DNA from: Leptolyngbya sp. CCY15150
Lineage (GTDB): Bacteria; Cyanobacteriota; Cyanobacteriia; RECH01
Direction: 5' to 3'
Length of the DNA: 64,000 nucleotides
Assembly: GCF_016888135.1 (NCBI RefSeq)
Contig: NZ_JACSWB010000147.1
Span: 1 to 64,000, forward strand
In this document: positions 1-2,433 of the stretch, piece by piece
Layout of the letters: the number at the start of each line of letters is the position of its first letter
How positions within the stretch are numbered: the stretch's first letter is position 1
The notes under the pieces: model-generated
Databases searched by the model: none
Told to the model about the DNA's origin: nothing
The model's input: the letters and a program-made list of their open reading frames with translations, nothing else
Translations under genes and position numbers: made by a program

Positions 1-132
1 TATTGAGAACAGTGTCAATAGATTGGTTGAAAAAGCTCATTCTTTCGTTCAGGATTCGACAGATTGGGCAAGCTACTGGTCAAAATGAGAATTGCTGTCT
101 TTCACCTACAGCAATGATATGCGGACTCATAT

Positions 133-218
133 GTATAACGTTCCCGACCAGCGGCGGCAGATAGCCTTGAACTCAGCACCAGCAGATTTCGTTCGTCCGC
201 TGCCGTGAAGTGTTAGCC
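133..218 (-). other. attC-like recombination site ending the HEPN cassette
   Basis: Read on the minus strand, the 86 bp begin with an R''-like box GGCTAAC (218-212) and end with an R'-like box GTTATAC (139-133). Imperfect complementary arms lie inside: ACGGCAGCGG near the left end pairs with CCGCTGGTCGGG near the right end, leaving an unpaired base on one side. This is the form of an integron attC site. The stop codon of the HEPN-like gene (232-234) lies 13 bp before the R'' box, as is usual for the last gene of a cassette. R' departs from the GTTRRRY consensus at one position, so the call rests on structure and context. Confidence 0.7.
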
Positions 219-1042: not shown

Positions 1043-1129
1043 GGCTAACGTTCTGGTTGAGCGGCTGTAAGTAACCTTTGCATCCACACCGAGATCTTGT
1101 AGAAGTCCGCTCCAACCAGGTTGTTATGC
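1043..1129 (-). other. attC recombination site ending the DUF4760 cassette
   Basis: On the minus strand the 87 bp run from R'' GCATAAC (1129-1123) to R' GTTAGCC (1049-1043). The inner arms CTGGTTGGAGCGG and CCGCTCAACCAG pair almost perfectly and leave one extra G unpaired on one strand. This matches the extrahelical-base feature by which integron integrases choose the bottom strand of attC. The TAA stop of the DUF4760-like gene (1126-1124) sits inside the R'' box, a well-known trait of integron cassettes. The crossover would fall after the G at 1049, which begins the next cassette. Confidence 0.85.
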
Positions 1130-1819: not shown

Positions 1820-1879
1820 GACCTTATATGCCAAGAGATAACTTTCATGCTACCGCCCTCACCGAAGACTTGCGGCATA

Positions 1880-2150
1880 ACTATTGTTTATACTGAACTT
1901 CCCCCCTCTGATCGGCATAACACCTCCCATAGGGATGATTAGCCAGACCACAACTGAATATCACCTCCTCCAGAGAGGATTAGGCTGAAAATTGTCTGTA
2001 TAACCACCCTACTTGGGGTGTTATACAGATCTTAATCAGTCTATACACCTATATAGGGGTGATTATGCCGATGAGATGCTTGATAACACCCCTATTAGGG
2101 TAGTTATGCATACCGAGATCCGTATAGTACGCTCATTTCAGGGTGTTATG
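1880..2150. repeat. array of palindromes spaced every 41-42 bp between integrase and cassettes
   Basis: At least five imperfect dyads are centred near 1929, 1971, 2012, 2053 and 2095, with degenerate copies near 1888 and 2137. The general form is TAAC-ACCC(C)-TAT-(G)GGGT-GTTA, often flanked by GC/TGC and GC bases. The best copy (1996-2027) has CTGTATAAC and GTTATACAG as outer arms. The dyads are about 23-33 bp long with 8-18 bp between them, and the period is close to four helical turns. Individual copies differ at many bases while keeping pairing. The ends (GCATAAC / GTTATGC) resemble attC R boxes, but the dyads are far too short to be ordinary attC sites. No CRISPR-like unique spacers are present. 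Confidence 0.75.
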
Positions 2151-2204
2151 CGGCTATCTTCAGACAATCTTCACGATCAGCCCAGGATCAACGCATGTAG
2201 TATT

Positions 2205-2238: not shown

Positions 2239-2433
2239 ATGATCGATCCTCGACCCAGAAAACTCTTGGATCAAGTCCGCGATGCGATTCGGCTGAAGCA
2301 TTACTCCTATCGAACAGAGCAGACCTATGTCGGTTGGATTCGGCGCTACATCATTTTTCACAACAAGACCCATCCCAAGGATATGGGTGCCCCTGAAGTT
2401 GAATCTGTTCTAACCTATCTGGCAGTCGATTGA
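2239..2433 (+). pseudogene. integron integrase (IntI-like), truncated N-terminal fragment
   Basis: The 64 codons give an N-terminal SAM-like core-binding domain typical of integron integrases. Visible parts are KLLDQVRDAIRLKHYS, YRTEQTYVGWIRRYIIFHN and GAPEVESVLTYLAVD. A full IntI has about 320 residues with a catalytic Arg-His-Arg-Tyr domain, which is missing. Homology appears to continue for about six codons after the TGA (QVSTST, compare the family's VAAST), so the TGA probably arose from a CGA codon. Beyond about 2451 the similarity ends, and queC starts at 2572, so the remainder was deleted. A GGAG lies about 11 bp before the ATG. The gene reads away from the cassettes, the normal layout of an integron. 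Confidence 0.85.

Follow-up and report, generated by a model that had tools for sequence, protein, structure and literature searches.

Is the palindrome at the 3' end of a DUF4760 gene in Leptolyngbya sp. CCY15150 an attC recombination site, and does it belong to an integron? The window analyzed here is the 64,000-nucleotide stretch covering positions 1 to 64,000 of contig NZ_JACSWB010000147.1 (C147), whose end coincides with the start of the window, in a genome of 5.75 Mb in 304 contigs. Read on the minus strand from 2240 down to 1, this end of the window holds, in order, a leader, the core GTTATGC (1881-1875), the DUF4760 gene, the palindrome (1129-1043), a second gene, and a second attC (218-133); the cassette array is cut at window position 1 because the contig ends there. 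A remnant of the integrase gene intI was located on the plus strand at the expected place, and the cassette array diverges from it. We conclude that the element is very probably an attC belonging to a cassette of a chromosomal integron that has decayed in this cyanobacterium. Sequence and structure support this identification, as do covariation, orientation, and context.

The layout of the site was read on the minus strand as GCATAAC-AAC-CTGGTT-G-GAGCGG-A-...-CCGCTCAACCAG-AAC-GTTAGCC (Table 1), and it follows the 3' end of the cassette gene and is oriented like other attCs. The L stem consists of 12 bp with zero mismatches once one G is omitted under the strict pattern described below. This agrees with the preliminary description, which had noted a single unpaired G in one arm; the base is G1113 or 1112 in L'', a G on the cassette strand, and the bottom strand, which would be the one to recombine, has a C there. 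A1106 was unpaired as well, and the second stem past it comprises only two pairs in the window site. The AAC/AAC spacers are unpaired, and the terminal loop is about 35-40 bases long. The R boxes are complementary, with TAAC of GCATAAC pairing with GTTA of GTTAGCC. Each has one base that does not fit the textbook RYYYAAC / GTTRRRY, which is usual here, as 53 of 94 sites in relatives were off by exactly one base in R'' and 50 of 94 in R'. Cleavage of an attC is expected at G^TT in R', which falls here between 1049 and 1048.

Table 1. Features of the integron region in window coordinates.
Feature	Position	Strand	Basis
intI remnant, first 64 aa then TGA	2239..2433	+	PF13495 E 2.9e-17
Leader, palindromic half-sites at ~41-bp spacing, between attI core and intI	1882..2160	.	
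attI core GTTATGC, end of the leader common to other loci at G^TTRRRY	1875..1881	-	
First cassette	1880 to 1049	-	attI core and attC junctions
Cassette gene, DUF4760 protein, 204 aa	1124..1738	-	ORF; PF15956 E 3.5e-19
attC of first cassette, 87 bases	1043..1129	- (bottom strand = window +)	strict pattern, 0 mismatches; covariance model 78.0 bits, E 3.2e-17
R'' box GCATAAC	1123..1129	-	sequence; covariance-model alignment
TAA stop of DUF4760 gene, inside R'' (bases 4-6 of GCATAAC)	1124..1126	-	ORF 1738-1124
L'' arm CTGGTT-G-GAGCGG, extrahelical G 1113 (or neighbour 1112)	1107..1119	-	sequence, fold, strict pattern
Second extrahelical base A (T on bottom strand), after GAGCGG	1106	-	R1 alignment; A1 columns 24-27
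L' arm CCGCTCAACCAG = CCGCTC-AACCAG	1053..1064	-	sequence, strict pattern
R' box GTTAGCC	1043..1049	-	sequence
Second cassette gene, 222 aa	232..900	-	weak below-cutoff match HEPN_RiboL-PSP
Second attC, outer L boxes mismatched	133..218	-	covariance model 53.3 bits, E 5.5e-11

The TAA of the DUF4760 gene was indeed found inside R'' (1126-1124). The preliminary description had taken this stop and the unpaired G together as hallmarks of a functional attC. The attC identity and the extrahelical base on the L'' arm stood, while the stop as a hallmark did not. Among the relatives' sites with an upstream reading frame of at least 60 codons (81 of 94), the stop was the TAA of R'' in 11, lay before the site in 68, and within the site in 2. 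This was nevertheless the commonest single position, every other position accounting for at most 6 sites, and in the own genome it was seen in 7 of the 22 sites (of 26) with such a frame. Because TAAC is part of R'', stop codons often fall there, and one that does is neither a hallmark nor proof of function.

The structural evidence was examined by folding, pattern search, and a covariance model. The bottom strand folded into the hairpin, bulge included, at -14.1 kcal/mol (z -1.94; 5 of 200 shuffles folded as well), and the opposite strand gave -15.4 kcal/mol (z -2.10; 4 of 200). Folding energy as the sole evidence for an attC was rejected as too weak, being mildly unusual equally on both strands. 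A loose hairpin finder, which scored the site at 11.4 with the rest of the window reaching the 10-11 bin, was replaced by a strict pattern (AAC...GTT ends, 12-bp stem, one-base bulge) and then by the covariance model. The strict pattern matched once in the 64-kb window, on the minus strand, and gave 0 matches in 40 shuffles of the window. When the relatives' loci and the own-genome stretches were searched along with the window, 28 matches with 0 mismatches lay on the minus strand and 1 on the plus strand; allowing up to 2 mismatches gave 82 matches, 73 minus and 9 plus, in loci with intI mostly on plus and, in some fetched stretches, on minus. The covariance model (R1) was built from 47 distinct attC-like sites with at most 1 mismatch, all from other genomes (alignment A1). 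Up to an E of 10, it matched the window at the two array sites and nowhere else; an Rfam search at the gathering threshold matched a tRNA alone in the window.

Covariation in A1 was consistent with a paired structure. Of its 1033 cells, 92.0% pair, compared with 72.4% in shuffles, and 202 cells were changed on both sides, compared with 65.3, pair counts that are inflated in columns 11-23 since the sites were chosen for L-stem complementarity. In columns 25-27 with 67-69, which lie outside that selection, 20, 22, and 3 sequences were changed on both sides, and 1, 6, and 5 did not pair.

Integron systems of cyanobacteria have, to our knowledge, received far less study than the ones in Vibrio or clinical bacteria. 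We compared the site with its relatives, most of which come from cyanobacteria of the Leptolyngbya kind. Counting the own genome, R1 matched at E up to 1e-4 in 33 of 39 genomes, and 25 of the 39 contained the IntI N-terminus (E up to 0.001); in all, 106 R1 matches were obtained in 93 of 98 loci. All seven intact integrases tested from attC-bearing loci scored above the TIGR02249 cut-off. We took 94 of the relatives' R1 matches further, 63 of them in loci turned with intI on plus, and among these listed matches 62 of 63 lay on the minus strand, as in the window. Sites that accompany an intact intI in Leptolyngbyaceae and elsewhere among the cyanobacteria share with the window site their ends and orientation, the bulged G, the loop motif, and the length (84-89 bases), and the window site is homologous to them.

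The attI side of the junction was examined with six leader copies of this genome that reach a cassette end, the window's included. In five of the six, the core was AACAATAG^TT (GTTATGC, GTTAGCC, GTTATAC, GTTAGCT, and GTTAGCC), AATAG^TTRRRY-like, with different cassette DNA directly after it; in the sixth copy (L173) the core differs. Judged from these sequences, the cores and the divergence form the pattern left by different cassettes inserted at one attI. Allowing at most 2 mismatches, 18 of 59 cyanobacterial regions had a motif similar to the window's attI upstream of intI, compared with 4 of 59 in shuffles; thus, conservation across the group does not extend to the exact attI sequence. Of the features expected in a complete integron, an attI next to the first cassette was present, and in place of an intact intI there was a 64-aa remnant ending in TGA. 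This remnant matched TIGR02249 at E 1.5e-17 over the first 64 model positions, below the curated cut-off, and its DNA similarity to the copy on contig C292 extends to 2513.

The own genome holds many dead integron copies. Four intI remnants were detected with the 64-aa query, and no intact integron integrase was found in the genome with that query or above the TIGR02249 cut-off. The window leader was repeated with 14 matches. A remnant or leader with an R1 match in matching orientation was present in at least eight places, namely the window, C292, C124, C122, C123 (weak, E 0.27), C218 (weak partial, E 0.09), C207, and C147:107875. There were about two dozen attC-like sites, with at least 31 places at R1 E up to 1, a lower bound since 150 of 1306 first-look candidates were scored. 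Leader copies were noted at C292, C124, C122, C208, C218, C172, C157, and C123, several of them beside an attC and some without intI.

Such widespread decay raises the alternative that the window site is a homologous attC that has itself decayed and is no longer a substrate, which we regard as possible, though unlikely. The missing integrase favours it, as do the mismatched L boxes of many other own sites: the outer L box was perfect in 3 of 26, compared with 46 of 94 relatives' sites, the latter figure being partly raised because the model was trained on sites chosen for L-stem pairing. Against it, the window site is one of those three, had 0 strict mismatches, and scored highest among the 31 matches listed in the genome. 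Mismatch between the outer L boxes was also observed in the sites L032 11088-11173, L033 9326-9412, and L035 7885-7969; these mismatched-arm attCs look as if each combined the halves of two different sites or as if its arms had decayed separately. A plus-strand reading of the second window attC (R'' GTATAAC, R' GTTAGCC) was rejected, as its loop and its model match fit the minus strand only.

A hairpin that terminates transcription or protects the mRNA of the DUF4760 gene would account for a structure at the 3' end of the gene that folds on both strands, and such a role might coexist with attC identity. As an explanation in its own right it is highly improbable, as a long loop caps the 12-bp stem and no T-run follows it, and the AAC/GTT ends, the fixed bulge, the loop conserved across genomes, and the attI junction would be left unexplained. 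A repeat-rich genome and a leader full of palindromes might speak for a palindrome that arose by chance, or for an unrelated dispersed repeat of the REP or MITE type. This reading, which the preliminary description had called improbable as far as chance is concerned, is refuted to near certainty by the absence of strict matches in 40 shuffles, the E of 3e-17 from an independently built model, and the strand bias of 62 in 63. What speaks against the attC reading is the only mildly unusual fold energy, the one-base departures in the R boxes, and the two-pair second stem.

With the site read as an attC, its place among known systems can be considered. Integrons have been reported in Cyanobacteria among other phyla, together with intI pseudogenes and several integrons per genome (PMC2426708, in its excerpted text); broken intI and more than one copy per genome are found here as well, with the difference that this genome has four remnants, at least eight remnant or leader plus attC places (two weak), and no intact copy found. 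A Cyanobacteria-specific attC covariance model was introduced by Ghaly et al. 2021 (PMC8352920) and applied in PMC9176274, as far as the excerpts of these papers go. The window site is of the same phylum and kind as the cyanobacterial chromosomal attCs covered in the excerpt of PMC8352920, with the differences that its match is to the R1 model built here and that the integrase beside it is broken. For mobile integrons, the excerpted text of PMC12901181 gives the R'' consensus RYYYAAC and extrahelical bases (EHBs); the R''-L''-L'-R' layout and extrahelical bases on one arm are common to both, whereas the R boxes of the window site are one base off and no mobile platform or resistance gene is in view. 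Cyanobacterial integrons and their attCs are already published, and the window attC adds one more member. The palindrome is computed as a real attC and placed in a largely decayed, multi-copy cyanobacterial integron system; in itself it alters nothing in the field.

Once single-stranded, the window plus strand (the attC bottom strand) would fold into the hairpin; IntI would then read the paired R and L boxes together with the extrahelical C1112/1113 and T1106, cut at G^TT in R', and join the cassette to attI. Since no intact integron integrase was found in the genome, any attC activity would need one from elsewhere. An IntI encoded by the genome itself has apparently been lost, and the cassette is therefore now probably fixed unless an outside integrase comes.

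The leader between attI and intI is less ordinary than the attC. In 52 of 67 distinct cyanobacterial intI-upstream regions, the strongest self-match beat 30 shuffles, and in 51 it lay at ~41 or 82; in non-cyanobacterial regions the corresponding counts were 3 of 13 and 1 of 13. The half-site TCHSNNTAA, which was read off the same sequences in which it was counted, occurred 255 times, compared with 25.4 in mononucleotide shuffles, and neighbouring half-sites on the same strand were most often spaced by 41 or 40. Inverted half-sites ~41 bp apart were also present upstream of intI in L055, L058, L063, L071, L083, L104, and other loci. Reading the leader palindromes as attC pairs (loose-finder matches at 1915-2109) was rejected, since none matched R1; other candidate identities for them are a LexA-type operator, a CRISPR, and a plain terminator.

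The best-studied attI, attI1, carries two direct repeats upstream of its L-R boxes according to the excerpted part of PMC4792948, whereas the cyanobacterial leader is a long inverted array. We tentatively suggest, with rather less than even confidence in the whole, that cyanobacterial integrons have an extended attI in which alternating inverted half-sites (approximately TCHSNNTAA, resembling TCAGTATAA beside the core) recur at ~41 bp on the same strand, that the array serves as a binding site for IntI or a dimeric regulator, for assembling the insertion complex or for regulating intI and the cassettes, and that in this genome the leader copies outlive the integrase. The half-sites would then be putative accessory sites for IntI or a regulator. 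A literature search by title and abstract opening found no published description of a ~41-bp leader array; if true, the array would matter more than the attC itself. In the window, half-sites were located on the minus strand at 2021, 1980, 1939, and 1888, the last within the attI region.

In a PADLOC search, three cassette proteins, including that of the second cassette gene (232-900), had no match. A plus-strand reading frame ending near 88 (window 1-88) is opposed to the cassettes, and the window also contains what are presumably a psbA-like gene and GCGATCGC repeats.
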